Source: a bacterium (GTDB lineage Bacteria > Bacillota_I > Bacilli_A > RFN20 > UBA1709). Taken from it: a stretch of DNA of 16,932 nucleotides. The notes under the pieces were generated by a model that saw nothing but the letters and a program-made list of their open reading frames with translations, was not told the DNA's origin and searched no databases. Shown piece after piece: positions 1,358 to 16,932 of this stretch. Positions within the stretch are counted from its first letter, which is position 1, and the number at the start of each line of letters is the position of its first letter. Where the stretch lies: NCBI GenBank assembly GCA_012511355.1, contig JAAZGG010000016.1:1-16932 (forward strand), given 5' to 3'. A program made the translations under genes and the position numbers.

Positions 1358-1535
1358 TACCTTAGTGGATTTCGCATCTACTACTGCTAGCAGTCAAATA
1401 AAATATTTCTCTTTATTGTAACTTAAGTCACTAACTCGATTATTTCTAAGCAATGACACTAAAGAGAAGTTCTATTGTTCAGCTCTTTAAAATTCAGTGC
1501 CTATTTAATTCCACAGTAGAAACATAAACTTATTT

Positions 1536-1563
1536 TTGACCGCTCAAGAGATGTTACTATATG
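1536..1563 (+). promoter_or_regulatory. Candidate sigma70 promoter for the coiled-coil gene
   Basis: TTGACC (1536-1541) and TATATG (1558-1563) are separated by 16 bp. Transcription would start about 70 bases ahead of the ATG at 1642. The match to consensus is moderate. Confidence 0.35.
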
Positions 1564-1629
1564 TAAAAACATTGTTGCGATTTAATTAAATTCAATAGCT
1601 GCTTCTATATTCGACATAAACAACTACAT

Positions 1630-1635
1630 GGAGAG
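1630..1635 (+). promoter_or_regulatory. Ribosome binding site of the coiled-coil gene
   Basis: GGAGAG ends 6 bases before the ATG at 1642, which fixes that start codon. Confidence 0.7.
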
Positions 1636-1641
1636 AAATAA

Positions 1642-2922
1642 ATGAGTGAATGGGTAGATAGGATTGAAAATCATGAGATATTCAATACTTTTGAAAGCCT
1701 CAACAAGTTACTTGATGAAAATAGAGTTAAAGCGGAAAAAACATCAACTGAGGCGATAGATGCACTTGACCGAGTTTCTAGTGGAGTTCGCCACATAGAA
1801 AGCTTATTGAATAGAGTTGATCCAATTTTAATTGTCCCTAGTTCGCTTAATCAATTGAATGCGAGCCTAAATAAAATTTCTGCCTCTATGGCTCTTTTTA
1901 AACAAACGTCTGGACTTGTACACCTTATATCAGGAAACACTCAATTAGATACCGCCCTACCCCAACTATCGACAATTCATGTTTTAGCAACTCCTAGTGA
2001 TGTAGATAACTTACGTGAGGCCTCGTCTTCCTTTAGACGCTCCTGCGCCCAGTTAAATAAAAACTTAGAAATCGAAATTGAAAAGACACTTAGCACCTCT
2101 GAGAATCTAAAAACAAAACTTGATGAGCTATCAACAGAAATAACAAATCAAAAAACAAGATTAGATGATGCTATTACTAACTTCACTGAAAGCTTTAACA
2201 CCTCACAATCGAAAAGAACCGAAGAATTTTCTTCCTTCAAAGAACAATTTAAAACTGATGTATCTGACTTTATCAATAAATCTCAAAACTCTTTTACTAT
2301 TTTTATGTCTGAATCCAAAGAGAATTTAACTCAATTACATGATGATATGAACAGTGAGCACTTAACTCTTCTAAAAACTACCGAAGAAAATAATAATAAT
2401 ACTATGAAAGATATTGAGAAGCATAAAACTGAAGCTGAAAGATTAGTCGGAATTATCTCAATGACAGGTATGGTCGGTGGCTACCAAAAGGTCGCGAATA
2501 AAGAAAAATCAGCTTTTGTTCGCTGGAGAATAGGTACTGTAATTTGCATGATCCTACTTGTAACTTTTGGAGTTTATACCTTCTATACGACAGTATCCGA
2601 AAACTTTGACTCTGCTATTTTTGCAAATCGACTATTCGTAACAGTTACACTCGCACTTTTGTCTGGATATTCTGCTCTTCAAGCTGATCGCCATCGAAAA
2701 GCAGATGTTGAAAATCGACGCATGGAGTTAGAGTTGGCGTCTTTTGATCCTTTTCTTGCCTCACTAACTGATGAAGAAAGAAACGAGCTCAAAAAGAATA
2801 TGGCTGAACGAATATTTGGACGTCACGCAACTTCACATAAAAATAATGAACAAGTTTCCCCTAACGCTCTTGTTGATTTGCTCAAACAAGCTCTTGAAAG
2901 TATAGGAAAATCAAAAAATTAA
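1642..2922 (+). CDS. Coiled-coil protein with a two-helix membrane hairpin, unknown function
   Basis: The product is 426 residues. Residues ~120-270 are rich in Lys, Glu, Ser, Thr and Asn with heptad-like spacing, so a long coiled coil is likely. Two hydrophobic segments (about 297-317 and 328-348) form a membrane hairpin near the C-terminus, followed by a charged cytoplasmic tail (YSALQADRHRK, then DPFLASLTDEER) ending around 426. There is no signal peptide, so the coiled coil should face the cytoplasm. I do not recognise the family and see no catalytic motif. Its position next to a HEPN gene and other defence genes suggests, but does not show, a defence role such as membrane anchoring, sensing or disruption. 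The start is supported by a strong Shine-Dalgarno sequence. Confidence 0.8.
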   Translation: MSEWVDRIENHEIFNTFESLNKLLDENRVKAEKTSTEAIDALDRVSSGVRHIESLLNRVDPILIVPSSLNQLNASLNKISASMALFKQTSGLVHLISGNTQLDTALPQLSTIHVLATPSDVDNLREASSSFRRSCAQLNKNLEIEIEKTLSTSENLKTKLDELSTEITNQKTRLDDAITNFTESFNTSQSKRTEEFSSFKEQFKTDVSDFINKSQNSFTIFMSESKENLTQLHDDMNSEHLTLLKTTEENNNNTMKDIEKHKTEAERLVGIISMTGMVGGYQKVANKEKSAFVRWRIGTVICMILLVTFGVYTFYTTVSENFDSAIFANRLFVTVTLALLSGYSALQADRHRKADVENRRMELELASFDPFLASLTDEERNELKKNMAERIFGRHATSHKNNEQVSPNALVDLLKQALESIGKSKN

Positions 2923-2971
2923 AAGACCTACTTTTTACTTTTATAGAACCTCAACTACTTTGTCTGAGCCA

Positions 2972-3028
2972 GGTAATCCCCCCGCAAAACCGCATTGTGA
3001 ACTGACCCCATAAAAATGGGGGATTACC
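2972..3028. repeat. 11-bp inverted repeat, GGTAATCCCCC type
   Basis: GGTAATCCCCC (2972-2982) is matched perfectly by GGGGGATTACC (3018-3028), with a 35-base interior. The interior contains TGAACTGACCCC, which looks like the terminal sequence of some IS3-family elements; that likeness is from memory only. Confidence 0.6.
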
Positions 3029-3033
3029 ATGGG

Positions 3034-3077
3034 CCTTCTATATTGTTACCCCTATATATTATCGCTAATATAGAAGG
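3034..3077. repeat. 11-bp inverted repeat, CCTTCTATATT type
   Basis: CCTTCTATATT (3034-3044) and AATATAGAAGG (3067-3077) are exact reverse complements with a 22-base loop. It follows the previous inverted repeat after 5 bases, so the two hairpins form a paired structure. No U-run follows, so it is not a simple rho-independent terminator. Confidence 0.6.
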
Positions 3078-3089
3078 ATAAAAGGCTCA

Positions 3090-3161
3090 ATGTCCACCAT
3101 CATCCCAGAGTGCGATAACTTATTCCACAATAAAAAAACTAATATTTTTAGGCCCAGATAT
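3090..3161 (+). pseudogene. Short 23-codon frame, possible transposase N-terminal remnant
   Basis: ATG at 3090 opens 23 codons beginning MSTIIPECDNLF and ending FRPRYQRN before a TAA. There is no clear Shine-Dalgarno sequence. The peptide has an ordered feel, and it reminds me of N-termini of IS91-like transposases, but that is an unverified recollection. It may instead be a chance frame. Confidence 0.2.
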
Positions 3162-3237
3162 CAGCGTAATTGAATTTTCTATGATATCTAGACGACAAAA
3201 ATACTTAATGTTTAATCTAATGTTAAACTAAATAACA

Positions 3238-3267
3238 CTTGTGACAGCCAGTCTTGTGACAGCCAGT
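3238..3267. repeat. 15-bp perfect tandem duplication
   Basis: CTTGTGACAGCCAGT occurs twice head to tail (3238-3252 and 3253-3267), followed by CTT as the start of a third copy. It may be slippage, a junction scar, or a double binding site upstream of the ATPase gene. Confidence 0.85.
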
Positions 3268-3404
3268 CTTATTGATGGCACTTTATATGTAAGCTTTAAA
3301 GGAACTATCAATTTAAATGTTTATAGGTTAACTGACTATTTGATGGTGATAGAGCAACACCACTAATTAAATTATTTATGGAGCCTTTAGGTTCCTTAGT
3401 TTTA

Positions 3405-3433
3405 TTGCTTATGTAACGAAAAATAAATATTAT
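3405..3433 (+). promoter_or_regulatory. Candidate sigma70 promoter for the OLD-like ATPase gene
   Basis: TTGCTT (3405-3410), a 17-bp spacer and TATTAT (3428-3433) fit sigma70 well. The start site would fall near 3440, giving a leader of about 29 bases to the ATG at 3469, which has GGAAG at 3458-3462 as ribosome binding site. Confidence 0.5.
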
Positions 3434-3468
3434 TAAGGGAATACTTAAATAAAAGACGGAAGACTAAA

Positions 3469-5136
3469 ATGATAAGAAAAATTAATCTAATCCATTATCG
3501 ACGCTTAAAAAATATAGAATTATATTTTTCACCAAATGTTAATGTTGTTTCAGGATTAAATGGAACTTGTAAATCGTCAATTCTTTATCTTATAAGCAAT
3601 GCTTTTCAAGCAGAAACAAACAGATCACTAAAACTAGTTGAGCCCACAACTCTAAGTACTCTAAACGCGCTAACCGATAATGTAAACAAAAAAATAGAAA
3701 CTTTAACAAAAGGAGACAAAGAGTATAACGATCCAGCTTACGGGGTCTCCGGTCCTTTGTATTCGATTGAGTATTTAAACGACATTATAATGAAATTTCG
3801 TAGGCATAACACCAAAACTAACGCTCGTTTTAGATTGGCACCTATGTACAGCGCTGGTGAAAAGCTTCCTGTATTACGTATTGTTTATTTGAATTTATCA
3901 CGCCTTGTCCCATACGGAGAAATTGCTGATACCGTAAAAGGTCAGAAAAAATCAAAACAACTTCCCGAAAAATATACACAAATTTTTCATGACTTAGTAA
4001 AAGAAATATTAAACATCTCCATTCAAGAATCAAAACCTGAAGTCATCGATGGAATAAAAACAAGAAGTGACTATAAGACTAATTCAACTGGTATTGACTC
4101 TAATACATCATCTGCTGGAGAAGACAATGTAATTATAATTCTACATAATTTAGTTTTACTTCAATATTATTATGATCAGCTAGATAAAGAGAAAATAGAT
4201 GACACTTTACCCCAATCTATTCTCCTAATCGATGAATTGGATGCAACACTACACCCAGCTTTACAAGTGCGTCTCGCAAATCTCATCATAAACTATTCAG
4301 CAGACTTCAAAATACAGGTATTTTTTACTACTCACAGCCTATACCTTATAGAGCACATGTTCAAAAGAGCGCAAGTAAGAATCAACTATTTGACTCATCA
4401 AGATGATCATGTAACCTTGCTGCCAGAGCCAACGATAGAAAAAATAGAGCGCCACTTACAAGAATCATTAACAAACAGAGCTCGTGATAGTCATAGGATC
4501 CCCATTTTTTCGGAGGATCCTGAAGCAAGAAAATTTATTGATGCATTATTCGCTTACTATAAGGAAAACTGCAAGTACTTTCAAAAGGTTTCTAATAAGT
4601 TTCATTTTGTTGAAGCAAATATTGGATGCAACACTCTTCGAGCTCTTTTTACAGATTCATATTTAGATAGAAATACAATGAATGCAATTTGCATTCTAGA
4701 TGGCGATGGCGGCGACAAAAATACAAAAAAAAATATTATTGTTCTTCCAGGTAAAAAATCTCCAGAAAACTTAATATTTGATTATATTACTGATCAATAT
4801 CAAAACAATGGAACATTCTGGAATAGCGCTAAACCACTAGACCTAGGTTTTACAAAGCAAAGATTTAAACAACACATCCTTCCAAAAATCGAATCAATTC
4901 AAGAAACAGTTACAAAATCGGGGAAAAAAGAAAGAGAAGTTAAGAAGCAAGTTTTTAATGAAGACACTGAATATTATCAAATAGTTATTGATCATTGGGT
5001 AAAACATAACTTTGAGCTAATTCAAGCTTTTTATTATGATCTCAATTTTTGTTTCAGACAAGTTGCTTTATTACACAATATTGACCCAGATATTTGGCCA
5101 AAACAATCTATACTAAAAAATGAGAATCTTACATAA
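3469..5136 (+). CDS. OLD-like AAA/ABC-type ATPase with diverged TOPRIM domain
   Basis: The product is 555 residues and combines an ABC-class ATPase with a probable nuclease domain. Walker A is G29-LNGTC-K35-S36, where the usual Gly before Lys is Cys. A signature-like SSAGEDN sits at 214-220, Walker B ILLIDELDA at 251-259 (D255, E256) and an H-loop TTHS at 287-290. After the ATPase, FSEDPEARKFIDAL (E349) and ICILDGDGGD (D411, D413) fit the acidic pattern of TOPRIM domains as in OLD-family nucleases. Such proteins usually act on DNA in phage defence. The gene has its own promoter and is followed after 84 bases by the methyltransferase on the same strand, so the two may act as a pair. The ATPase call is strong and the TOPRIM call moderate. 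Base use is AT-rich relative to the BREX genes. Confidence 0.75.
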   Translation: MIRKINLIHYRRLKNIELYFSPNVNVVSGLNGTCKSSILYLISNAFQAETNRSLKLVEPTTLSTLNALTDNVNKKIETLTKGDKEYNDPAYGVSGPLYSIEYLNDIIMKFRRHNTKTNARFRLAPMYSAGEKLPVLRIVYLNLSRLVPYGEIADTVKGQKKSKQLPEKYTQIFHDLVKEILNISIQESKPEVIDGIKTRSDYKTNSTGIDSNTSSAGEDNVIIILHNLVLLQYYYDQLDKEKIDDTLPQSILLIDELDATLHPALQVRLANLIINYSADFKIQVFFTTHSLYLIEHMFKRAQVRINYLTHQDDHVTLLPEPTIEKIERHLQESLTNRARDSHRIPIFSEDPEARKFIDALFAYYKENCKYFQKVSNKFHFVEANIGCNTLRALFTDSYLDRNTMNAICILDGDGGDKNTKKNIIVLPGKKSPENLIFDYITDQYQNNGTFWNSAKPLDLGFTKQRFKQHILPKIESIQETVTKSGKKEREVKKQVFNEDTEYYQIVIDHWVKHNFELIQAFYYDLNFCFRQVALLHNIDPDIWPKQSILKNENLT

Positions 5137-5220
5137 TCCTCCATTAGATTTATTTATTGGCCAAAGCCCATTTATTTTGTTAGCATCCACATTAATAATG
5201 TGCTTTATATTAACTACATA

Positions 5221-6075
5221 ATGAGATTCCATACCCCTCTTCGCTATCCGGGTGGCAAAGGTAAATTCGCCCCTTTCATTAAGTCATTAATTGAAGTTAA
5301 TGGACTTCGTGGTGGGCATTATCTTGAATTGTATGCAGGCGGGGCAGGCGTAGCATTAGAGCTGTTATTTAAAGAACATGTATCAGACATCCACATTAAT
5401 GATTTAGATCCAGCTGTTGCTGCCTTTTGGCAGGCTAGTGTTGAGTTAACGGATGAGTTAATTACCAAAATTAGAGAAGTAGACATCACGATTGACAATT
5501 GGCACTACTATAAATCCATTATGGAAGACAACGATAATAATGACATTCTTGAAAGAGGTTTTGCAACTTTTTACATGAACCGCTGTAATCGGTCAGGAAT
5601 CTTAAAAGCTGGAGTTATCGGTGGAAAGACTCAATCTGGTGATTGGAAGTTAGATGCTCGTTTTAAAAAAGAGAACCTAATACCACGATTTGAAAAAATA
5701 AAACAATACAAGGATAGAATTCATGTTTACTCTGAAGATGCTAAAGACCTTCTAATAAGATGTGATGAAATTTTACCTACTAAAAATTCTCTTATATACC
5801 TAGACCCGCCTTATTATGTAAAGGGTCAAGGATTATATAGGAACTTTTATAATCACCAAGATCATATAGACATTAAAGAAACTCTAGACAAAATCGAATT
5901 CCCTTGGTTGGTTTCATACGATAATGCTCCTGAGATAAGGAGCATATATCAAGGATATAGAACACAAACTCACATTCTTACTTATACAGCCCAAGAAAAA
6001 AAGCTTGGGGATGAGATTTTATTCTTTAGCAAAGGACTTGAAATTCCCAGAAAAGGACTTCGTCAAACAGCATAA
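5221..6075 (+). CDS. D12-class (Dam-like) DNA adenine-N6 methyltransferase
   Basis: The enzyme transfers a methyl group from S-adenosylmethionine to adenine N6 in a specific DNA site. Counting from the ATG at 5221 (284 residues), the D12 family order is complete: TPLRYPGGKGK at 5-15, the SAM-binding LELYAGGAGVA at 35-45, INDLDP at 59-64, FYMNRCNRSGI at 117-127 and the catalytic YLDPPYY at 193-199. An in-frame GTG at 5200 would add seven residues, but the family normally begins close to the TPLRYPGGK motif, so the ATG is preferred; neither start has a clear Shine-Dalgarno sequence. The gene ends 20 bases from the convergent brxL end. The target site cannot be read from the sequence. It may protect host DNA from the upstream ATPase/TOPRIM protein or be an orphan methylase. 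Confidence 0.9.
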   Translation: MRFHTPLRYPGGKGKFAPFIKSLIEVNGLRGGHYLELYAGGAGVALELLFKEHVSDIHINDLDPAVAAFWQASVELTDELITKIREVDITIDNWHYYKSIMEDNDNNDILERGFATFYMNRCNRSGILKAGVIGGKTQSGDWKLDARFKKENLIPRFEKIKQYKDRIHVYSEDAKDLLIRCDEILPTKNSLIYLDPPYYVKGQGLYRNFYNHQDHIDIKETLDKIEFPWLVSYDNAPEIRSIYQGYRTQTHILTYTAQEKKLGDEILFFSKGLEIPRKGLRQTA

Positions 6076-6095: not shown

Positions 6096-8159
6096 CTACT
6101 CAACCCCCAACGCCTTAAAAACAGCATCCACTGGATCTGAGTAAAAACTAGTCTGAAACTTGGTAAATAACTCCATAGGGATTGATGGAATATCCACAGC
6201 GCTACTCATTGGTAGTGCTACTTTTTTGGCACCAGCATCGAAAGCTACTTGAAGGCACTCTGCAATACTTTCTACAGGTGTTACGGAGCCTCCAAGGCTC
6301 ATGTCACCAAGTACCACCATCTGGTTCTGCACTGGCTTAGCAAGTAGTCCTGATGCAAAAGCAACTAAAGCAGGAAGTGCTAGGTGGGTTAATGGTCCAG
6401 TATTTTGTAGTTCAACAACGTGTAAATGGAAGTCATGATCTAGAAGTTTGTTGCCCCCTGATATGCGTGAAGCGTTTGCTTTGAAATAATCAAAAGCAAT
6501 TTTCACCTGCTCTTTTGCACTGCCTGAGTTCCACAGCCCAGAGGTCGCAAGCTTACCCGACCCCTTGGTTACTTGCAGTTCTAATCGGTACAAGCCTGGC
6601 ATTCCCTTATTACTCAAGCCGATAGTATGCAAGAACCCTGGTTTAGCGGGCTCATCGGGAATAAGACCGCCGCCGCGTTGTTCTTTGACTGAGACGAAAT
6701 GCTCCTCAAGCGTGTCATTGTCTATATAACTGAAGTGAACGTCATAAAACTCCATCCCACCAATCTTTTTCAGTTGTTCTTTGACTCGGCGACGTACTTG
6801 GAGTGCGTATTCTAAGCATTGACGTACGTCTTCTTTATCAAACTTACCATGTGGGTACAGCAGCTTCATCAGACCTGAATCTGTCTTGCGAACTGCGATA
6901 ACATCTCGTTGGTTTAGGTTGTTTCCTAACTTAAAGTATTTATCAATCACATCAGCAAAGCTCATCTTACGCATTTCTCGGAAGTACTCAGCGAGGTAAT
7001 CAACAATTAAACCATAACGATCCGTAAAAAACTCTGGACGCATTTTGGGGATTTCCCAGCCCGGGATATAAGCATGGAACCGATCGAAGAAAGCCGAATC
7101 AATCATGGCTTCAGGAAACGGCGCTAGAAGATGGCTTGTCTTAACTAGTGACTCCACACTTTGATTGATGTTACCGACAAAAACCATTGAAGCAGATGCT
7201 TCCATTTGTTCACGACCACGCGCAAAAGAACCGGAGGCCATATAGTCTTTCATGATCTGGACACCGTCTTTATCTTTAAAAGAAATACCGGCCACTTCAT
7301 CAAAAGCCACCACGTCCCACAACCCAACTAACCCAATACGGCGACTACTCATATTATAAAAAAGGTTAGCAACTGTCGTATGTCCACCTGAGACAAGAAT
7401 ACTGTTCGGCGAACACTCTTTATAAATATGACTTTTACCTGTACCTCGTGGACCTAACTCACACACGTTATAGTTATTTTCTACAAAAGGCACCATGCGT
7501 GCTAAAAAATGCCATTGCACATCAACATCCAGAGAGGCTGGTTCCATTCCAATTGAACGAACTAAGCACTCTCGCCACTGATCAGTAGTAAATGCCTCTC
7601 TTCCACTAAACAGTTCATCCATATTCATGTTTGGCATCTGAATTGGCTTTAGTAGTGACACACCAAAAGGTGAGCTGTTTTGACCCTCTTCATAATAATA
7701 GCTTAGCGTTGCAATAACCCAAATTCCGCCGACCAGTAGTTTTTCGTACTCCTTGACAATACCGGAAGAAATTTCAGCATCCTTTATACCGAGGTTGCTA
7801 AATGACGCCTCATATTTATCCTTGCGCTCGTTAAGCTTAACAGTCACTCGGTCGATGATTTTATAACTACCGCGCTCACGCACCAAAGACTTTACTTTTT
7901 CTGCTTCATCGGGGCGTACATAGTTTTCTACTAACACTGTTTTGACGCTTTGTAACCCTTGATCTATGACATCAGGATCATCTGAGGCGCAGTACATACC
8001 CAACAAATACTCAAGAACATAAACGGGAACGTTGGCCCCTTCTTTAATCAACTTAGTGAGGTCTTTACGAACAACGCGACCGGCAAAATGCTCATTCAGC
8101 AGTTGATCTAAATCCTTTTCATTTACTGTATCCATATACATAGTACTTCGCTCAATCAT
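6096..8159 (-). CDS. brxL: BREX type I effector BrxL (AAA+ with Lon-like C-terminal domain)
   Basis: BrxL is the AAA+ DNA-binding phage-restriction factor of type I BREX. At 687 residues it has the family's usual length. Walker A is GPRGTGKS at 236-243, Walker B VVAFDE at 283-288, sensor-1 Asn330 in VFVGNIN and an arginine-finger candidate R360 in FFDRF. The C-terminal ~150 residues are Lon-protease-like, yet the Lon serine motif GPSAG reads GPLTH (588-592) and the dyad-lysine position in SIAECL is not Lys, so peptidase activity is unlikely. The N-terminal HFAGRVVRKDLTKLI is typical of BrxL. The true start may be the ATG at 8141 or 8135, because residues MIERSTMY precede the conserved start and no clear ribosome site supports 8159. 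It lies 9 bp after pglZ and is the last gene of the run. Confidence 0.93.
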   Translation of the reverse strand: MIERSTMYMDTVNEKDLDQLLNEHFAGRVVRKDLTKLIKEGANVPVYVLEYLLGMYCASDDPDVIDQGLQSVKTVLVENYVRPDEAEKVKSLVRERGSYKIIDRVTVKLNERKDKYEASFSNLGIKDAEISSGIVKEYEKLLVGGIWVIATLSYYYEEGQNSSPFGVSLLKPIQMPNMNMDELFSGREAFTTDQWRECLVRSIGMEPASLDVDVQWHFLARMVPFVENNYNVCELGPRGTGKSHIYKECSPNSILVSGGHTTVANLFYNMSSRRIGLVGLWDVVAFDEVAGISFKDKDGVQIMKDYMASGSFARGREQMEASASMVFVGNINQSVESLVKTSHLLAPFPEAMIDSAFFDRFHAYIPGWEIPKMRPEFFTDRYGLIVDYLAEYFREMRKMSFADVIDKYFKLGNNLNQRDVIAVRKTDSGLMKLLYPHGKFDKEDVRQCLEYALQVRRRVKEQLKKIGGMEFYDVHFSYIDNDTLEEHFVSVKEQRGGGLIPDEPAKPGFLHTIGLSNKGMPGLYRLELQVTKGSGKLATSGLWNSGSAKEQVKIAFDYFKANASRISGGNKLLDHDFHLHVVELQNTGPLTHLALPALVAFASGLLAKPVQNQMVVLGDMSLGGSVTPVESIAECLQVAFDAGAKKVALPMSSAVDIPSIPMELFTKFQTSFYSDPVDAVFKALGVE

Positions 8160-8168
8160 TATTTTTAA

Positions 8169-10793
8169 TTAGAAAAAGTCATCGCTAAAAGCCAAGTCGA
8201 TGGTCACTTTGTAGCGTTCAAGCTCAATATTGAGGTCTTTATCTTTTATCACTAAAAAATAATCTGCTCTACGGTCAAAATCACTACCAGATAAAGAGAT
8301 TTTTGGGTGTTTGATATACTCTTTTGAAGACTGATCAGTGCAGTCAAAGGTCAGAGTTTCTTCACTCGACACAAGGGTATCATGTGCATCATAAATAGCG
8401 ACTGAAACAGTAATAGGTGTGATTAAATCAGTCACCATCTCACTTTGCATCAGCGTAAATGAGTGAATGTTATTAACTACTTTGAGGTTGTTTATTGTAG
8501 AAATCACCTTAACCTTTCGCTTAGTTCGGCTAGCTGCATTCTCACCACGCAACTGTTTAACTAATATAACTGGCACGACAATTTCTTGTGGCATAATTCC
8601 GCCATGAACAAAGCGTGAACCGCCTGTAAAATGGAAACGATTATTTCCTTTGGGGATCCAGAAATGAACATCCGAACTAGTGTCTGCTGTTTCTTTGGTT
8701 GAACCTTTAAAAACAACTTGATTGTCAGGAAAATCACGACCTATGACATAACGTTTTTTATTTTTAATTACGACCTCAGGTACTTCGCCAAGTTTAGTTC
8801 GATCGATTTCATCTAACTTAGTTTGTTGATACAGAAAACCATGATCTGCGGTTATAAAGAGCGTTGAAATATTCATGTCTCTTAACAGCTTGCGACTCAG
8901 CTCATCAAGCTCTCTAATTGCTTGCTCTACCGCGATAAAGGTTTCTGATTCAGTCGTTGAATTATCACCACGGGCATCAATTACATTATGATAGACATAA
9001 ATTAATTCGATATTCCTTACTTTTTCTCGCGCTTCATCACGCGACCATTTCATGACTTCTTCAGCAGTAAAAGCCACCCCTTTATAAGCTTCGAGTATCT
9101 TTGAACGGGCTGCTGTTCCTTGACTTGTCTTACCATCAACAAGCACGTCATCACTGGCATTTTTATAATCCAATGTCTGATGTGGTAATAATGAAGCCAT
9201 TCCAAGTGTGGTATAACTCGGTACGACGCCAAGCTGTGAAGACAAAGTAGCTTGTGAGTATCTTTTTTGATTAATGAGTTCGCTTAACTCCACCGCAGCT
9301 TCATAACGAAATGCATCACTAATGATTACCGCAACACGACGTTTAGTTGTCGAGTTTAATAATGGCTCAATGTTCGTTCGATAAAAATTGTACTGATTGG
9401 GAACATTAGGAATTGTCCAATCATTTAAACGTTGCTCACCCTCTACTCTTTCGAGCAGGTTTTTAGAAAGTTTAACTAAATAGGTGTCTGCATAATAACT
9501 ATCAATTGCTTTATCAAGCGATTTCAACATCTCCAGACTAGCCTGCCGTGAAGCTTCACAATAGTGTCGGTAGGAAGTATCAAAACGGTACAACTCTTTT
9601 TCATAGTTCTTATAGATCGACTCACATGAATCAAAATAAAATCCGTCAATATATTTTTGTTTTAATGTGAATAATTCAATAGCAGCTTGTAACGCCATAT
9701 AGCCAATACGATAATTAGGCCGTTCTGCAGAGTATTTATATCTAGATGCCCAATAACCATCTAGACGTTCTGAAATTATATTGGCATAATGCGCTAAATC
9801 TTTTTCATCCGCATCAGGGACCAAATCTACTAAATCTCTGATGATCTTTATTTCAATGGCTTCAAAGGTCATTACGCTGACCAGTTGGTCAACTTTAAAA
9901 GGTTCTAGTCTCTCCTCAATTTTTAAAGTAAGTGATACTAATTTGCTTACATAATCAAAGCTCTGGTAATGACTAGAACTATCACACCAACGAGAGGCAT
10001 ATGCAATAGTAGTTGCTCTCGAATTAATTGACGGCATTACCGAGCTAGATGCCCATGTTGGCACCTCACCGAGACTTTCACAAAAGCTGGTCGCTATAAA
10101 ATGGGTTAAGAAAGTACCAAGATTAAACGGTTTTTCTCCAGTTTGCTCTTCTGTAGTAGGCTCATAACCAAACTCTTGCTTCAACACTTGCATCAAGGTC
10201 GCTGTCAAGCCAAACTTTTCTAGCTCAAGCATTGATGGAATCTCATCCCCTAAAGCAAGGTGACCCTCTGCCATTTCATCAGCAAGTGCCATCAAGATAT
10301 AGATTAACTCAGTATTCTCAGCTTTGAGTACTGTAGCTATCATAGCCATATCAATTTCTTGCTCATCCGCATCAGCTCGAATATAGCGCTTCAAACTTGC
10401 TAAGCGCTGTTTATTCGCACAAAACTTATCACGTTTAGAAAGATGTTCCCTAAGACTTTGTTTTTGCAGACCAAGTTGATTAAAGATGATAGAAAAGCGA
10501 TCAGCATAGAAACTGCGTGAATACAGTTTGATATCTAGCAACCAGTCATCTTCCATGTCTGGCTCAGCATATGGAAAATACAACAGATACTTATGCTCTG
10601 TCTCTTGAAGCTCTAACTTTATTTTGATTTCAAAAGTAGATCGCTCTTCCATATTGATGATCTGAACCTCATCTAACAGCAACTCATTGACTTCCTCAGT
10701 AAACGATTTTTCAGCGTCATACCAAAAAACGATGCGATGATTTTCATTAAAAAAAGCTTGTTCTAAACCTTTTTGTAGTTGTGCTAAATTCAT
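8169..10793 (-). CDS. pglZ: BREX type I PglZ, alkaline-phosphatase-superfamily protein
   Basis: PglZ is a core BREX protein of the alkaline-phosphatase fold, needed for both host methylation and phage blocking in type I systems. The product has 874 residues. The metal-site pattern is visible: IISDAFRYE at 490-498 (D493), SYTTLGMASLLP at 526-537, YHNVIDARGD at 601-610, TADHGFLY at 648-655 and RFVHGGIMPQE at 727-737. The N-terminal part (IVFWYDAEKSF at 21-31) and the C-terminal ending YKVTIDLAFSDDFF are typical of the BREX-1 class. Its ATG overlaps the dprA-like stop codon as ATGA (10790-10793), a sign of coupled translation, and brxL follows after 9 bp. No damaged motif was seen, so it should be functional. 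Confidence 0.94.
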   Translation of the reverse strand: MNLAQLQKGLEQAFFNENHRIVFWYDAEKSFTEEVNELLLDEVQIINMEERSTFEIKIKLELQETEHKYLLYFPYAEPDMEDDWLLDIKLYSRSFYADRFSIIFNQLGLQKQSLREHLSKRDKFCANKQRLASLKRYIRADADEQEIDMAMIATVLKAENTELIYILMALADEMAEGHLALGDEIPSMLELEKFGLTATLMQVLKQEFGYEPTTEEQTGEKPFNLGTFLTHFIATSFCESLGEVPTWASSSVMPSINSRATTIAYASRWCDSSSHYQSFDYVSKLVSLTLKIEERLEPFKVDQLVSVMTFEAIEIKIIRDLVDLVPDADEKDLAHYANIISERLDGYWASRYKYSAERPNYRIGYMALQAAIELFTLKQKYIDGFYFDSCESIYKNYEKELYRFDTSYRHYCEASRQASLEMLKSLDKAIDSYYADTYLVKLSKNLLERVEGEQRLNDWTIPNVPNQYNFYRTNIEPLLNSTTKRRVAVIISDAFRYEAAVELSELINQKRYSQATLSSQLGVVPSYTTLGMASLLPHQTLDYKNASDDVLVDGKTSQGTAARSKILEAYKGVAFTAEEVMKWSRDEAREKVRNIELIYVYHNVIDARGDNSTTESETFIAVEQAIRELDELSRKLLRDMNISTLFITADHGFLYQQTKLDEIDRTKLGEVPEVVIKNKKRYVIGRDFPDNQVVFKGSTKETADTSSDVHFWIPKGNNRFHFTGGSRFVHGGIMPQEIVVPVILVKQLRGENAASRTKRKVKVISTINNLKVVNNIHSFTLMQSEMVTDLITPITVSVAIYDAHDTLVSSEETLTFDCTDQSSKEYIKHPKISLSGSDFDRRADYFLVIKDKDLNIELERYKVTIDLAFSDDFF

Positions 10794-12115
10794 AGTAAAT
10801 TACTCTCTATGTCCTCTTGATTGTTATTACTTTTCTCATCACTTAGCCATGCATAGCGTAATTTACGCCCATCTCTTCGAACATAACCCTCAGCTTCTAA
10901 CTCTTTAAGCCATTTTTTTATTTGTGTTTCTTGCAACTCTGGGTAAATATATTTAATGCTACCCAAAGCAAAAAACGTTTCTTGTTCTTCTGATAATTGC
11001 TTTAAAGTGTCTTTAAATAATTTAAATATTTCACCATATTGCGGTGTAGCAACATCGAGTGATTCATCAATCGACTCAGCCTCCTTAGTGTAATCACTAT
11101 CGTTTATCATTTGATTTAAGCCTTCGGCAAACAAATCGGGTTGTAAATTTGTGGCACCTGTGGTGTAAGATACTGAATTTTCTCGACTCTGGCCCCCTTT
11201 TTCCAAAAACTCTGAATAAGGAACTTTGCTCTCACCTAACGGAATACCGCCCTCTTGAATCAATGCTTGATTCCCTTCTTGCGTACAATCCCTAACTAAC
11301 AAGGGCACCCAAGCTTTTTTTAAATTTTCTATGGCACCTCCCCAAGTCCCTCCCTTATTTTTATCACTTTTAACGACAACCACCGCTTGCGACATTGTAT
11401 AGATATACTTATTTCGTGCCATCGCGTTCCCTACACTAAAGCCTGCTTCCGGATAAAAGGGGCTGACCAATGCCAAGCTTTGATCTCGCAAATAACGTGA
11501 AAGCTCGCGACGATTTGAATTTACAAGAACGCCATCAGATAGTATGCCCACACTTTGGCCACCATACTCGAGCGCTGCTCGCATTGATGTTTGATCAATT
11601 CCCTTTGCACCACCTGAAATTAATGTATAACCCGCATCGACAGCTTGTTGTACTTTTTTAACTGTGAATAATGTATCATCCTCACTGATAGGACGAGAAC
11701 CAACGAAACCAATCCCAACTTGATTCAAAAGCTGTTTGTTGCCCAGACCATATAAAATCGGTGGATGCTGATCACTCAACTGTTTTTTTATAGAACGAGG
11801 GTAAAACTCACTGGCTCTTGAAATAACCCAAATACCTTGTTGATCCCATTTCTCAATAGCAAAACCCATACTACCTCCGCGACCTAACAATTGCAGAAGG
11901 CGTTCAGTAGTGATTTTTCTCTTGGGGTCAGTCCACTTATCTAAAATTACGTTGTCTTTACGAAACAGATCGGCTGGTGTGTAATTATTTTCGTGCAACC
12001 ACTTTGCAAATCGTAAGTACTCCGCACCAGTTAACGGTTTAAAAATTTTAACTTCGGTCTTATTGAAATAAGAGCAAAGTAGCAAGGTTGCTTGCATAAT
12101 TTCATCATATTGCAT
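10790..12115 (-). CDS. DprA-like protein (Rossmann/SLOG type), partner of the helicase-PRTase
   Basis: The central domain (~95-300 of 441 residues) is DprA/Smf-like: YGLGNKQLL, GFVGSRPISEDD at 136-147, ISGGAKGID at 166-174, GNAMARNKYI at 229-238 and GGTWGGAIENL near 255-265. These motifs form the ligand-binding surface of the fold. Unlike housekeeping DprA, the ends differ: an unfamiliar N-terminal ~90 residues and a C-terminal winged-helix-like segment (EEQETFFALG to VRRDGRKLRYAWL, ~375-424). It follows the helicase-PRTase after 2 bp, with the Shine-Dalgarno AAGGTGA inside the preceding gene, and overlaps pglZ by ATGA. In ShosTA systems a DprA-type protein is the antitoxin of a PRTase toxin, which this pairing recalls. 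A nucleotide or DNA-binding role is possible. The fold call is strong, the function inferred. Confidence 0.82.
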   Translation of the reverse strand: MQYDEIMQATLLLCSYFNKTEVKIFKPLTGAEYLRFAKWLHENNYTPADLFRKDNVILDKWTDPKRKITTERLLQLLGRGGSMGFAIEKWDQQGIWVISRASEFYPRSIKKQLSDQHPPILYGLGNKQLLNQVGIGFVGSRPISEDDTLFTVKKVQQAVDAGYTLISGGAKGIDQTSMRAALEYGGQSVGILSDGVLVNSNRRELSRYLRDQSLALVSPFYPEAGFSVGNAMARNKYIYTMSQAVVVVKSDKNKGGTWGGAIENLKKAWVPLLVRDCTQEGNQALIQEGGIPLGESKVPYSEFLEKGGQSRENSVSYTTGATNLQPDLFAEGLNQMINDSDYTKEAESIDESLDVATPQYGEIFKLFKDTLKQLSEEQETFFALGSIKYIYPELQETQIKKWLKELEAEGYVRRDGRKLRYAWLSDEKSNNNQEDIESNLL

Positions 12116-12117
12116 AT

Positions 12118-14226
12118 TTATTCACCTTGGTTCTGTTTGGATGTACTAGTTAATGCAATGGGATAAACAGCAACAGCACCAGCTCTTCGTAACAAGGCAG
12201 CTGCTACTGTGAAGGTCCAACCAGAATCGACGGCATCATCTAAAAGTAACACTGGACTTCTGAATCCTTGCTTACCATCTATGGTAAAAACTCCATCAAG
12301 GTTGCTGCTCTGTCTAAAACTATTTTGCATCGTTTTCTGTGGAGGCCGCTTCTCCACCATGACTAATGCCTCTCTGCAGGGAATTCCTAATTTTTCAGCC
12401 AAACGATAGGCAAAACTTTTAACCAGTTCAGGATTGCGCAGTGAGGGTATATAGGTTAGCCATTGCGGTTTTTCATCAAACTCCATTGATTTAACCATAG
12501 TAACCATAGGCTCTAACAAATCATCACTAAAATGTCCTACCCCTTTGTCATGAGCAACCAAATCTCCCCAAGCACCATCTCGCCAACTAGATAATGCCAA
12601 ACCTTCAGCAGCCTGCAAAGCTGAATCTTTAATAGGAAATCCATAATGAGGGAATGCATTTTTAGCCATAGCCCCAGATATGGCAAATTTTTTTCTTGGG
12701 CTGATTTTAATGTAACGATACTTTGAAAACTCCAGTGCTTCTTTAACCACATCCTCACTGACCTCAGTCAATAACTGACGATTAGGGGTACAATTCATGC
12801 AGTTTCCGCAATCCTCAGTCAAAGGATCGTCTAAAGCAAAAGTAAGCTCTTTCATCAAACAATTAGTGGCGTTATGATAAGCCCTTAATTGATTCCATTC
12901 CCTTTTTTTAATGGCTGTAATATGTTCAATATGCTCTGTAGGTAAACTATAGTTTTGTTCATTCCTGAAATATTTCTTAGTTCTACTGTCTTTATAAATT
13001 GGAGAAGGATTCTCTACTGTCAAAAACTTTAGAACAGCTCGAATTCTGCTCACACTCAAGTTGATTAGTCTTTCTATCTCATAGTCTTTTACGCCATCAG
13101 ACTGTTCCAATGCAGTTAAGACTTGCTCTATTTCTTCTTCACTAGGAAAGGCGTTATTAATAAAATAATCCTGTATCTTCTCAGACTCAGGACCATCCAT
13201 CAAAACACCATAGGCATGTTCAATAGCACGTCCGGCACGACCCACTTGTTGATAATACTCCACGATACTGCCTGGTAATTGGAAGTGAATGACAAAACCT
13301 AAATCCGGTTTATCAAAGCCCATACCTAAGGCAGAAGTTGCTACTAATACTTTTAATTTATTAGATAACAAGGCATCTTCAAGTCTGATGCGAAGCTCAT
13401 TATTGGAATTGCCATTATAAAAACTGGCATGTATGCCTTTATATCTGAGCCACTCCGCTAAAAGCTCACCATCCCTAATGGTTTTTACATAAACAATACC
13501 GGTTCCCTCAAGCTGAGGAATATACTCAGCAAGCCATGCCATTCGTGCACTTCGTCCAGCTGACGGCATATTTTGTAAATAAAGAGACTGTCGTTTCAGA
13601 TCACCTCGGATAACCTGCAAATCATCACCTAATTGCCGATTGATATCAGTAATTACCCGAGTAGTGGCAGTAGCTGTTGTCGCCAAAATAGGAATATTAG
13701 CAGGCATACGATTTAATAAGCGAACAATCCGGCGATAATCCGGTCGAAAATCATGCCCCCAATCAGAAATACAATGCGCCTCATCGACTACAAATAAACC
13801 AATATTAGAAAGAATATGGTTCAGTACATTTTCTACTAGCTCATCATTTGCTAGTTGCTCTGGTGAAATAATAAGGGCATCAATTTGCCGACTCAAAATT
13901 AGTTGTTTGGCTTCATCATTTTCTTGTTCTGATTGTGCAGAGTTAATGGAGACTACACTTAAACCTAGCTCACCCGCACGCTCTACCTGGTTACGCATTA
14001 AAGCAATAAGCGGTGAAATAATAATCGTAGGACCCTTACCTTGCAGACGCAATAATTTGGTTGCAATAAAATAGACCGCACTTTTCCCCCAGCCAGTTTT
14101 TTGAACAACCAATAGCTTTGATTGCTCTTCAACCAATTGCAAAATTGCTTCAAGCTGCCCTTCGTGAAACTCAGCAGCATGATTAGCAGTCATTTCTCGT
14201 AATAAGGTCAAGGCATTATCTTTCAT
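12118..14226 (-). CDS. RecQ-type helicase fused to a C-terminal phosphoribosyltransferase domain
   Basis: The 702-residue product joins two enzymes. The N-terminal ~480 residues are a RecQ superfamily-2 helicase: Walker A KTGWGKS at 43-49, DEAHC at 148-152, ATTATAT at 182-188, VATSALGMGFDKPD at 295-308, QQVGRAGR at 326-333, and a zinc site of C456, C473, C476 and C479. It has no HRDC domain. The C-terminal ~120 residues (WLTYIPSLRNPE from 589) are phosphoribosyltransferase-like, with the PRPP-binding loop VLLLDDAVDSGWT at 659-671. Residues ~490-585 link the two. The dprA-like gene begins 2 bp downstream. PRTase with DprA is the pairing of ShosTA-type toxin-antitoxin systems; fusion to a helicase suggests it is triggered by DNA structure. 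Domain calls are strong; toxicity is inferred. It is not a housekeeping RecQ. Confidence 0.88.
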   Translation of the reverse strand: MKDNALTLLREMTANHAAEFHEGQLEAILQLVEEQSKLLVVQKTGWGKSAVYFIATKLLRLQGKGPTIIISPLIALMRNQVERAGELGLSVVSINSAQSEQENDEAKQLILSRQIDALIISPEQLANDELVENVLNHILSNIGLFVVDEAHCISDWGHDFRPDYRRIVRLLNRMPANIPILATTATATTRVITDINRQLGDDLQVIRGDLKRQSLYLQNMPSAGRSARMAWLAEYIPQLEGTGIVYVKTIRDGELLAEWLRYKGIHASFYNGNSNNELRIRLEDALLSNKLKVLVATSALGMGFDKPDLGFVIHFQLPGSIVEYYQQVGRAGRAIEHAYGVLMDGPESEKIQDYFINNAFPSEEEIEQVLTALEQSDGVKDYEIERLINLSVSRIRAVLKFLTVENPSPIYKDSRTKKYFRNEQNYSLPTEHIEHITAIKKREWNQLRAYHNATNCLMKELTFALDDPLTEDCGNCMNCTPNRQLLTEVSEDVVKEALEFSKYRYIKISPRKKFAISGAMAKNAFPHYGFPIKDSALQAAEGLALSSWRDGAWGDLVAHDKGVGHFSDDLLEPMVTMVKSMEFDEKPQWLTYIPSLRNPELVKSFAYRLAEKLGIPCREALVMVEKRPPQKTMQNSFRQSSNLDGVFTIDGKQGFRSPVLLLDDAVDSGWTFTVAAALLRRAGAVAVYPIALTSTSKQNQGE

Positions 14227-14268
14227 ACACTTTAACTCTCTTAATATTCACAACTATTAAATACCGCT

Positions 14269-15153
14269 TTATGAATTTTTTCTAAATTCGAATGCCTTTC
14301 TAAATAGCTGTATCAGTAATTCTTGATTTTTATTTAGATCATCTGCAGTTAAACGAATTCGGCTACGACGCCATCTTGCATCATATTCCATGATGTCAAC
14401 TTCTGAGTCTTCACCTAAAACCTCTTTAATGATGTTCTTAATTTCCTCTTCTGGGATTTTTAGTTCAAGTATCATTACACTTCGGCGCGGACGCATTAGT
14501 ACAAAATTATATGCTCTACCATTCAACCAAAAACCAATGTAATGCTTGTTGTAACTGAGTTGTAGTGCAGGATCTATGCTTTGTGCTAACTCAGCTAATT
14601 TATCAACAAGATTCATTATTTCTTTTGTGCTTTTTTGTATTTCCCAAAAAGATCTATCAGTCGGTTCAGCCAGTTCTTCATCTTCATCCACTAGCCCTAA
14701 GCGCACTACATCTAAGACTTTTGTGAAACTTAAAACAATTCCTTCTGAGTGTTCATAAGCTGTAAGCTGTATAGCTATAAGAGGAATAGCACCATTAAAC
14801 AGACTAATGACATTAAGAAATCTTGAAGTGATATTTTCAGCAATAATGACTGCCGTATGTTCATATTGTGGATATCGTTTGCGCTCTAAATCCCAATATT
14901 CTATCGTACGGATAATATGCGACTCATCAGTTGCACCCAATTGAATTTCCACTTCGTAACGACTTAAACTATCAACATCTTGTAAAAGTAAATCTAACCT
15001 ACCCGCCCCAGTTTGCTGACGTTCTTTATCTCTAACAACCAAATCGCCTAGTTCCAATAGAGTAGGATCTTCACTAATTATTTTTTGAACCCATTGCTCT
15101 GAGATCGTCGGATGATTTTTTAAACTAACTTTCTTTAATTTAATGTGCTTCAT
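14269..15153 (-). CDS. PD-(D/E)XK-like nuclease with DUF5655-like C-terminal domain
   Basis: The 294-residue product shows a restriction-endonuclease-like core at its N-terminus: GAGRLDLLL at 49-57 (D54), then YEVEIQLG at 66-73 (E67, E69, Q71). In the PD-(D/E)XK scheme the last residue is usually Lys; here it is Gln, which some active relatives tolerate. SHIIRTIEYWD at 78-88 and SRFLNVISLF in the middle are strong family-like blocks. The C-terminal ~110 residues, with YNKHYIGFW and RRSVMILELKI, resemble the DUF5655 domain often found in nuclease-like proteins. It stands between pglX and recQ-PRTase, 83 bp after pglX and 42 bp before the helicase. No Shine-Dalgarno sequence is evident at the ATG. 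Role unknown: nuclease, or a non-cleaving DNA-binding relative. Confidence 0.65.
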   Translation of the reverse strand: MKHIKLKKVSLKNHPTISEQWVQKIISEDPTLLELGDLVVRDKERQQTGAGRLDLLLQDVDSLSRYEVEIQLGATDESHIIRTIEYWDLERKRYPQYEHTAVIIAENITSRFLNVISLFNGAIPLIAIQLTAYEHSEGIVLSFTKVLDVVRLGLVDEDEELAEPTDRSFWEIQKSTKEIMNLVDKLAELAQSIDPALQLSYNKHYIGFWLNGRAYNFVLMRPRRSVMILELKIPEEEIKNIIKEVLGEDSEVDIMEYDARWRRSRIRLTADDLNKNQELLIQLFRKAFEFRKNS

Positions 15154-15236
15154 ATACTTATATTAAATGTGATTTTCATGTATTGGTTAATCATTAATTT
15201 CAACGATTTGAATCTTGTCTTGAAAACCCCAAAGGA
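15154..15236 (-). other. 83-bp gap between pglX and the nuclease-like gene
   Basis: This is the widest gap in the minus-strand run. It holds a promoter candidate close to the downstream start and part of a palindrome over the pglX stop. No terminator-like U-run after a stable stem was seen. Confidence 0.5.
15162..15190 (-). promoter_or_regulatory. Candidate internal promoter ahead of the inserted module
   Basis: On the minus strand, TTAACC (15190-15185), a 17-bp spacer and TTTAAT (15167-15162) match sigma70 with one mismatch in the -10 box and two in the -35. The start site would be only a few bases from the ATG at 15153, so the mRNA would be nearly leaderless. This would let the nuclease, helicase-PRTase and dprA-like genes be expressed apart from pglX. 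Confidence 0.3.
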
Positions 15237-15245
15237 TTAATCCTT
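15232..15245. repeat. 14-bp perfect palindrome over the pglX stop codon
   Basis: AAGGATTAATCCTT is its own reverse complement and contains the pglX TAA stop (15237-15239). It could be an operator, an old insertion target or chance. Confidence 0.5.
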
Positions 15246-16932
15246 GCCCTTAGCAGCTATATCTTTTGCATTAGCCAACAAATCACCAAACTTACCATAG
15301 TTCACACGTACGCCATCATCTAGGTCTAAGGAGATACGCTGATCGGCATAGTGTCGTAATTTCTCTTCAAAGATTGAGAGCTCAGCCTGTTGTTTCTCTA
15401 AGTCCTGAATTTTCTTTTCTATGCGTTTAATCTCAGCCGCTGAGTCACTATTTTCTTTTGATGTTTCTAGTGATTTAACATAGGCTGCCATTTTTGACAT
15501 TAAAGGCATGACGTACTCTGTACGCATACGCGCTAAAGTACTTTCGTTATAACGATGTAAATAAACTAATGCTTGGAAAGCGCCTAACTTACCACTACTG
15601 AATAGCCAGTAAATCGGTCTTTTCTGATAAGTTCGCATATGGTCTTTATAAAACTTAGTTGCTAGGTAACGTCGAATACTCTCTTCTGGTGTTTCACCGA
15701 CTTTGCTACCTAGGCTATCAGATAACCAACGCATATTATCCTCTAAGGACTCTTTAGTCCACACAGTCCCCAAAAACTCTTTAATACGTGTTGCTGCATC
15801 GTTTTCAAACCAGTGCTCTTGAGTTAGAGGAATAATGCCATCCACATCAGCAGGAAATTTCTTATAACGACTAAGATCGAAATCTTCATTTGCTGCATGA
15901 GCATAAATTAAGCCTAGTTCGTCAAGACTATAACGGCCCATCATACAAGCAATGACATAAGAAACTAAGCGCTGACTATCTTTTTCACGGTCAGCACGAG
16001 TTAAAGTAATTTGCTCATCAGGCACATCAGGAGTTAATTCATCCTGTAAACCATAAGCATCGATAAACAACTTATTATTCTCTTCCTCAAGCTGCTTCAT
16101 CTCCGCTACTGCTGCTGTGTTTTGTTGTTGCCAAGTATTAAAAGATTGCTCTAAATTCGGCTGTTGAGTACGGATGATTGGGTTCTCAGTGAAATCCCAT
16201 GAGGTTTCATAGGAGTCCCAGTCTAACTTCGATATTTCAACCATTTTTTCAACCGATATTTGCACCTGCATTTCCAACTCTGGTAGTACTGGTATTTTTC
16301 CAATTGGACCCTCATGAAAATCAAGTGTTGGAGAAATAGCTAATAACAACTCACTAACCACTTTTGAATTCATTAAAGCAAGGACTAAATTTAACTTAGC
16401 ATCAGAATCAGGAAAACAAACTGAACCTTTCGTTTCAAATAAGAAACCAGCAGGAGAAAAACGCATAGAAAGAGAACTACTACTAATAGTAGACCAAGTC
16501 GTACCCTTTTTAAAATCGTAGCTTGGGTTACGAATAACTGATCCGGAGAATTCTTTCATTTCACTTCCATCATTCCCCCAATTCACTACATAATTATTAT
16601 TTCCATACCATTTTCTAAAGGTACCTCCCTTGTTGCAGGGATACCATTTAAATCCTTGATGTGCGTAAAAACAACTTATAGAAGAGAAATGAAAATTTAT
16701 TTCATGCCAATAACGAAGAAATCTATCATTACGACCTGTAGCGAACCCTTGGCGTGGAACAGCATATTCTTGCACAAAAACACCAAAATCAAAAACATCC
16801 CTTACCTTATCACTCACCCAATAAGCAATAGGACTTCCAGGAATCTTCTTGAAATCGTCAATTTTGGTGGTTTTTAAACGTTCATTTTGAATTGGAAATT
16901 GTTGTGGGACTCCACTGGTGTCTAAATCAGTA
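15237..16932 (-). CDS. pglX: BREX type I adenine methyltransferase PglX, C-terminal part only
   Basis: PglX is the site-specific adenine-N6 methyltransferase that marks host DNA in BREX. The frame is open to the right edge, giving 564 residues; the GTG at 16817 is an internal Val codon, not a start. Full-length PglX is about 1,200 residues, so the N-terminal catalytic half with its NPPY motif lies outside the window. What is present is the target-recognition and C-terminal region: PIAYWVSDKVRDVF, RQGFATGRNDRFLRYWHE, KWYPCNKGGTFRKWY and VVNWGNDG are typical of the BREX-1 class. The C-terminus ends in a charged coiled coil (KRIEKKIQDLEKQQAEL) and KDIAAKGKD. It is the first gene seen of the minus-strand run; brxA, brxB and brxC are expected further right. 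Confidence 0.93.
   Translation of the reverse strand, partial: TDLDTSGVPQQFPIQNERLKTTKIDDFKKIPGSPIAYWVSDKVRDVFDFGVFVQEYAVPRQGFATGRNDRFLRYWHEINFHFSSISCFYAHQGFKWYPCNKGGTFRKWYGNNNYVVNWGNDGSEMKEFSGSVIRNPSYDFKKGTTWSTISSSSLSMRFSPAGFLFETKGSVCFPDSDAKLNLVLALMNSKVVSELLLAISPTLDFHEGPIGKIPVLPELEMQVQISVEKMVEISKLDWDSYETSWDFTENPIIRTQQPNLEQSFNTWQQQNTAAVAEMKQLEEENNKLFIDAYGLQDELTPDVPDEQITLTRADREKDSQRLVSYVIACMMGRYSLDELGLIYAHAANEDFDLSRYKKFPADVDGIIPLTQEHWFENDAATRIKEFLGTVWTKESLEDNMRWLSDSLGSKVGETPEESIRRYLATKFYKDHMRTYQKRPIYWLFSSGKLGAFQALVYLHRYNESTLARMRTEYVMPLMSKMAAYVKSLETSKENSDSAAEIKRIEKKIQDLEKQQAELSIFEEKLRHYADQRISLDLDDGVRVNYGKFGDLLANAKDIAAKGKD

Follow-up and report, generated by a model that had tools for sequence, protein, structure and literature searches.

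Positions 1 to 16,932 of contig JAAZGG010000016.1 (assembly GCA_012511355.1), the stretch of DNA analysed here and referred to below as the window, carry part of a type I bacteriophage exclusion (BREX) operon in which genes for a nuclease-like protein, a RecQ-like helicase with a phosphoribosyltransferase (PRTase) domain and a DprA-like protein stand between pglX and pglZ. The question raised by this locus is what these three genes do inside a methylation-based defense operon, and whether they do it together. To judge from their sequences, the helicase-PRTase and DprA-like genes are almost certainly the known toxin-antitoxin pair PsyrTA, also called RqlHI. We consider there to be about an even chance that this pair and, separately, the nuclease gene have been recruited as BREX cargo, and that the pair forms a back-up growth-arrest layer that comes into play upon disturbance of the restriction system or of phage DNA.

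The interruption described in the first-pass annotation of the window is real: the list of open reading frames (ORFs) and the BREX-1 models place three genes, filling about 4.4 kb, on the reverse strand together with the genes on either side. The order of pglX, pglZ and brxL is that of type I BREX, and all three exceed the NCBIfam BREX-1 cut-offs; the contig stops inside pglX, so brxA, brxB and brxC are out of view, and all three are present in the related locus on plasmid pYUSHP14-1. The tight junctions that had been pointed out are equally present, with gaps of 83 bp between pglX and the nuclease gene, 42 bp between the nuclease gene and psyrT, and 2 bp between psyrT and psyrA, followed by a 4-bp ATGA overlap of psyrA with pglZ. 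Between positions 6000 and 16932 there are 14 promoter-like sites, where shuffled sequence would be expected to give 28.6, and 10 terminator-like sites, where it would be expected to give 7.2. The GC fractions of psyrT (0.399) and psyrA (0.395) lie inside the range of the BREX genes of the window (0.38-0.434), and that of the nuclease gene is lower (0.353).

The assignment of the pair draws on matches to the PADLOC models that span nearly the whole of both proteins, and on the position of psyrA immediately downstream of psyrT. The window PsyrT carries Walker A, DEAH, zinc-cysteine and phosphoribosyl pyrophosphate (PRPP) loop motifs (VLLLDDAVDSGWT). In an alignment of 81 of 84 PsyrT sequences, from which the low-scoring split ORFs of loci L015, L025 and L082 were left out, Walker A, DEAH and the PRPP-loop positions D-D, S, W and T are near-invariant, and all of these are kept in the window protein. 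The zinc cysteines are kept there too; 19 of the 81 rows have gaps at this point, including those of two BREX loci described below (L069 and L061). The window PsyrA carries GSR and SGGAKGID, and both of these Rossmann motifs are conserved in the 75 PsyrA sequences that have residues there. In Escherichia coli, RqlH is genotoxic without RqlI, an effect that requires the PRTase domain and residue D663, and RqlI is a DprA-like suppressor of this toxicity that interacts with RqlH (PMC4670107). Carried over from this orthologue, the expectation is that the window PsyrT would be toxic alone, and would be bound and neutralized by PsyrA. A survey from 2017 had already tied helicase-PRTase proteins to DprA and to invasive DNA (PMC5512222).

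Comparison with related Acinetobacter plasmids, which were hand-picked from search listings and are not a census, gives insight into the nature of the gap between pglX and pglZ. These plasmids share about 75% DNA identity with the window over the 19-25% of it that aligns. The slot is empty, with 43 bp between pglX and pglZ, in pTol5 (L085) and pYH16040-1 (L107); it is filled by a DUF262 gene in pAb-C63_1 (L106), by a hypothetical gene in pEC_gr13 (L103), and by psyrT, psyrA and a GmrSD gene in pYUSHP14-1 (L084), where PsyrT is 71% identical to that of the window. The last cargo gene and pglZ share an ATGA overlap in all four filled slots compared (the window, pYUSHP14-1, pAb-C63_1 and pEC_gr13). 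The proposal that this is a slot for cargo thus stands: related loci are empty or differently filled, the cargo genes run in the same direction as their neighbors with little space between them, and both the combinatorial filling of the gap and the cargo status of the genes within it are well supported. The accompanying remark that other BREX loci carry brxU at this point needs amending, since pEFER has its brxU in the brxC-pglX gap; genes of the brxU family (GmrSD/DUF262) do sit between pglX and pglZ in Acinetobacter plasmids, with which PMC10117892 agrees. We also noted a TrlF-family ATPase gene as pglX-pglZ cargo in two BREX loci, one of Zoogloea (L035, 7095-9965) and one on a Vibrio plasmid (L104, 3981-6647); the pglX of the latter is annotated as two overlapping genes (323-3887). 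In A. baumannii pAb-C63_1 a cluster with a CBASS (cyclic-oligonucleotide-based antiphage signaling system) cyclase adjoins the BREX operon (10814-14359).

The product of the remaining slot gene is predicted to combine an EndoMS/NucS-like PD-(D/E)XK fold with a DUF5655 domain. EndoMS residues 131-239 align to residues 18-134 of the model of the slot protein, which places it within the EndoMS-type PD-(D/E)XK nuclease fold, with that fold at the N-terminus and a further domain after it; a search of PDB sequences gave two matches, both to SEC3 (E 0.15 and 0.26), which are not meaningful. This departs from the EndoMS layout, in which the nuclease domain is C-terminal; in the slot protein it comes first and a DUF5655/YdhG-like domain follows. 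The canonical EndoMS active site is D-E-x-K, with the lysine in E-x-K, and the slot protein has no lysine at this position. Asp54, Glu67, Glu69 and Gln71 are invariant in 38 sequences, with no lysine nearby in the motif, an assignment made at the level of sequence. The usual motif lysine is absent, and catalysis by the slot nuclease is therefore uncertain.

The first-pass annotation had read all three genes as one module, and this was not supported. We collected PsyrT loci by a profile search of genome contigs from GTDB species representatives, keeping the best 80 of at least 591 matches, and judged their neighbors by local hidden Markov model (HMM) searches, with family scans for some of the loci. 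The nuclease gene was beside PsyrT in none of these 80 other loci, by an HMM built from one sequence and with less than 3 kb on one side in 34 of the 80; among the PsyrT loci scanned, the HMM matched the window and its copy (L083) only. The annotated region of the closest relative, pYUSHP14-1, lacks the gene. The gene has two plasmid homologues, and within 8 kb of the one that was opened there is no BREX and no PsyrTA. In the loci scanned the three genes are not conserved together, and we reject the three-gene module; since the nuclease is beside none of the 80 other PsyrT loci, the slot looks like it holds a pair and separate cargo.

The pair, in turn, recurs in other operons. At least 3 kb is available on both sides in 46 of the 80 loci, and in 13 of these 46 BREX, DUF499/Hma or type I restriction-modification (R-M) genes lie in the locus near the pair, some of them a few kb away. 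In eight of the 46 (L004, L005, L008, L014, L019, L035, L060 and L069) the pair stands on the same strand between a methyltransferase or specificity gene and the core gene that follows, accompanied in some by other cargo. Three of these are BREX loci with the pair between pglX and pglZ. In Clostridium nigeriense (L060) the gap holds a SHOCT gene, GmrSD, psyrT, psyrA and Fic, and PglZ is of BREX-1 type A; in Zoogloea (L035) the pair is tightly packed with genes for a TrlF-like ATPase and a NERD-helicase, and in both Zoogloea and Candidatus Accumulibacter (L069) PglZ is of type B and PglX falls below the NCBIfam cut-offs. The pair is located after brxL in a Spirochaetaceae metagenome-assembled genome (MAG; L061). 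As a separate observation, two unrelated BREX loci have a Fic/DOC gene immediately after psyrA (L060, 13204-14337; L061, 13379-14419).

In three loci, two from Pseudomonas (L004, L005) and one from a Verrucomicrobia MAG (L008), PsyrTA is flanked by a DUF1156 gene and a DUF499 gene. DUF499-centred BREX-related systems carry a DUF1156-bearing N6-methyltransferase (PMC12839542), and the PADLOC models for HmaB, a DNA-adenine methylase, and HmaC score 1832 and 1622 bits in L004 and 1021 and 942 bits in L008, with L005 assigned by local HMMs. In one further locus (L042) a DUF499 gene was seen upstream of PsyrTA. Type I R-M systems of Vibrio furnissii (L014) and Providencia heimbachae (L019) have the pair between hsdS and hsdR, as does that of L086 (8688-18767), where tyrosine recombinase genes near an ssb gene occur on the same stretch. 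The unit hsdM-hsdS-psyrT-psyrA-hsdR is present in 53 of 5426 E. coli genomes, with 54 of 55 places chromosomal; the one chromosomal copy that was opened is near ssb and two tyrosine recombinase genes. Three of 13 plasmid records with PsyrT (E<=1e-60) were opened, giving one BREX locus, one type I R-M locus and one, from Nostoc, with neither in the annotated flanks.

A quick tree of 81 PsyrT proteins, in which DUF499 loci carried the label 'other', places the window and pYUSHP14-1 proteins as sisters (SH-aLRT 100) and the remaining BREX copies elsewhere. The BREX label (five rows) changes four times on this tree and the R-M label (nine rows) five times, with at least three and at least four of these changes, respectively, forced by well-supported branches; recruitment into BREX and into R-M has therefore been repeated.

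The trigger, the target and the back-up role in BREX are what we infer, back-up being the likeliest reading of the position of the genes and of the toxicity of the orthologue. The pair and the EndoMS-like nuclease gene would have entered the pglX-pglZ slot separately and, given their packing, would be co-expressed with the BREX operon. In an uninfected cell PsyrA would keep PsyrT in check. Infection may bring a disturbance in the form of single-stranded or unmethylated phage DNA, or of a phage inhibitor that occupies the methyltransferase complex; PsyrA might then be drawn off or switched in state, upon which the PRTase domain of PsyrT would damage or alter DNA or nucleotides, growth would stop and the phage would not be propagated. 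The nuclease, if active, could contribute DNA cleavage. PrrC (PMC9122126) and PARIS (PMC11341690) are precedents for such a back-up layer. The suggestion made at first pass, that the PRTase and DprA-like genes give BREX a second layer, thus survives in part: the pair belongs to a toxin-antitoxin and defense family and a growth-arresting layer is plausible, with the nuclease falling away as a member of the module.

Several observations weigh against this reading. By the HMMs used, 33 of the 46 well-flanked PsyrT loci show no BREX, DUF499 or R-M genes, and the neighbors scanned include ordinary genes (topoisomerase, RecC, MlaD, AMP-binding, UvrC). The pair also exists as a stand-alone unit; the copy in E. 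coli M160133, for instance, is flanked by gntU and yhgN. Even among close BREX relatives the pair is uncommon, with one Acinetobacter record among the 13 plasmid records that have PsyrT, against 141 Acinetobacter records with PglZ. When the labels were shuffled 500 times on the tree, 211 shuffles for BREX and 235 for R-M came out as low as the real labels, a clustering no stronger than chance, which fits repeated recruitment and gives no sign of specialized BREX lineages. Deletion of the native PsyrTA of E. coli NILS69 changed sensitivity to none of ten phages, and the cloned pair gave K-12 no protection and a growth defect (PMC12409345); the sections of that paper on NILS69 do not state whether this copy belongs to an R-M operon. 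In Salmonella, the embedded PARIS was inactive in the phages tested (PMC11341690), and embedding is by itself no proof of coupling.

The main rival builds on the same observations. PsyrTA may act as an addiction module or ride along as a passenger: as a selfish toxin-antitoxin unit it would stabilize its operon or plasmid without sensing infection, and the gaps in modification-restriction operons would be tolerated, co-expressed landing places; we regard this as possible, at distinctly less than an even chance. The presence of the pair is sporadic, with the slot empty in pTol5 and pYH16040-1 and holding other cargo in pEC_gr13, the Vibrio plasmid and pAb-C63_1, and the tyrosine recombinase genes adjoining the R-M-embedded E. 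coli copy, the stand-alone copies and the failure of one native copy to show an anti-phage effect, whether deleted or cloned, are all consistent with it. However, three kinds of system show the pair placed, repeatedly and independently, between a methyltransferase or specificity gene and the core gene after it, which in our judgement is more specific than would be expected of general hitch-hiking.

That placement also suggests, tentatively, a role wider than BREX, in which PsyrTA would be a general guard of methylation-based immunity, recruited independently to this position in BREX-1 (PglZ types A and B), Hma/DUF499 and type I R-M operons. The antitoxin would read the methyltransferase complex or its DNA, and would free the helicase-PRTase upon inhibition by a phage. 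In the parts of the PsyrTA and RqlHI literature considered here, toxicity is known and the trigger is not established; recurrence inside BREX, Hma and type I R-M operons offers a concrete candidate, namely inhibition or engagement of the methyltransferase complex. Embedding in an operon might also explain the lack of protection in the stand-alone style of test (PMC12409345). If the back-up reading is true, the helicase-PRTase joins the back-up effectors inside BREX, alongside BrxU, PARIS and the nucleases of PMC12839542.

It is improbable that the slot provides auxiliary restriction, with the PsyrT helicase, the DprA-like protein and the PD-(D/E)XK nuclease jointly degrading or remodelling BREX-recognized phage DNA without cell death. 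The helicase motifs of PsyrT and the EndoMS-like fold of the nuclease would suit such a role, and among auxiliary effectors adjoining BREX none is as prevalent as PD-(D/E)XK nucleases (PMC12839542), but the nuclease was found beside the pair in none of the 80 other loci, it lacks the usual motif lysine, and the phenotype of the orthologue is a PRTase-dependent self-toxicity (PMC4670107). Less probable still is DNA maintenance, in which the pair would repair or protect host DNA from self-cleavage or under-methylation by the restriction system, since, for all that a RecQ-like helicase is paired with a DprA-like partner and the RqlHI authors suggested a beneficial DNA function, RqlH alone is genotoxic (PMC4670107) and the BREX operons of pTol5 and pYH16040-1 manage without the pair.

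The source of the contig bears on how its relatives are read. At 16.9 kb it exceeds the 14 contigs sampled from its bin (1.5-6.7 kb); its tetranucleotide composition correlates at 0.55 with six unmasked bin loci pooled, against 0.79-0.89 for each of those six with the rest, and at 0.76 with pTol5. Length and composition together suggest that the contig is probably misbinned, its likely origin being a Moraxellaceae-like bacterium or plasmid; mobile DNA could look the same in these respects. PsyrT (E<=1e-60) was found in one of 295 genomes of the phylum to which the window is assigned, the genome of the window itself, and kinship in the bin is therefore uninformative.

Table 1. Genes of the BREX operon and its slot in the window.
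Feature	Position	Strand	Evidence and remarks
pglX, C-terminal 564 aa, BREX-1 adenine methyltransferase	15237..16931	-	NF033452 690.9 bits (cut-off 500), profile 652-1210/1210; PADLOC PglX 729 bits; 5' part beyond contig end
Nuclease-like gene, 294 aa	14269..15153	-	Predicted N-terminal EndoMS/NucS-like PD-(D/E)XK fold (~15-134) and C-terminal DUF5655/YdhG-like domain (~165-294)
psyrT/rqlH, RecQ-like superfamily 2 (SF2) helicase with C-terminal PRTase, 702 aa	12118..14226	-	PADLOC PsyrT PDLC03928 915.5 bits over 2-699 of 702 aa
psyrA/rqlI, DprA-like (SLOG/Rossmann) antitoxin, 441 aa	10790..12115	-	PADLOC PsyrA PDLC03927 439.9 bits; Pfam PF02481 121 bits
pglZ, BREX-1 type A	8169..10793	-	TIGR02687 782.3 bits (cut-off 270.35); start overlaps psyrA stop (ATGA)
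brxL	6096..8159	-	TIGR02653 1167.1 bits (cut-off 628.25)

Beyond brxL, and convergent with it, the forward strand carries a gene for an ABC-type ATPase (AAA_15) followed by one for a D12 adenine methyltransferase (3469-6075); the latter matches PADLOC PD-Lambda-5_B with 389.9 bits. A 426-aa protein encoded at 1642-2922 on the forward strand has, by eye, a coiled-coil look with hydrophobic stretches, no Pfam match and a weak match to LeoBC. At 2-1357 on the reverse strand lies a gene truncated by the contig end, whose product has no Pfam match and, by eye, a candidate HEPN-like R-x4-H motif in its C-terminal part.

The basic arrangement of recQ and dprA in the slot is already published: a drawing of A. 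baumannii BREX shows both among the genes 'intruding' into the pglX-pglZ gap (PMC10117892). That work has recQ, dprA and duf262 in the same gap as we describe; it differs in that the parts considered here do not use the PsyrTA name or propose a function, and mention, besides duf262, just a hypothetical protein. Genes between BREX components were reported in about 7000 of about 9000 genomes, with BrxU and PARIS named (PMC11341690); the main text of that report does not contain Psyr, RecQ or DprA, and its supplement may list PsyrTA. The main text of PMC12839542 likewise does not contain RecQ, DprA, PRTase, phosphoribosyl, PsyrT or SLOG. A literature search, mostly at less than full text, found no recognized account of PsyrTA residing inside all three kinds of operon, BREX, DUF499 and type I R-M.

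Among known systems, the BREX-embedded PARIS of Salmonella and BrxU of pEFER are similar in being accessory defense genes within a core BREX operon, with homologues counted between pglX and pglZ (PMC11341690); they differ in that their proteins are unrelated to PsyrTA and that BrxU of pEFER occupies another gap of the operon. Pfam and PADLOC scans reported none of the effector domains of PrrC or PARIS (anticodon nuclease, OLD-ATPase with TOPRIM) for the three slot proteins. The gene prrC is located between hsdS and hsdR. PrrC of the EcoprrI type I R-M system resembles the proposed role of the pair as a back-up effector attached to a methylation-based restriction system (PMC9122126), but is an anticodon nuclease where PsyrT is a helicase-PRTase. 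The closest likeness is to PsyrTA/RqlHI itself, with which the window pair shares both genes, the toxin-first order, the tight junction, the domain make-up and the motifs; the two differ in setting, as rqlHI of E. coli F11 is a separate two-gene operon (PMC4670107) and the window pair lies inside a BREX operon.

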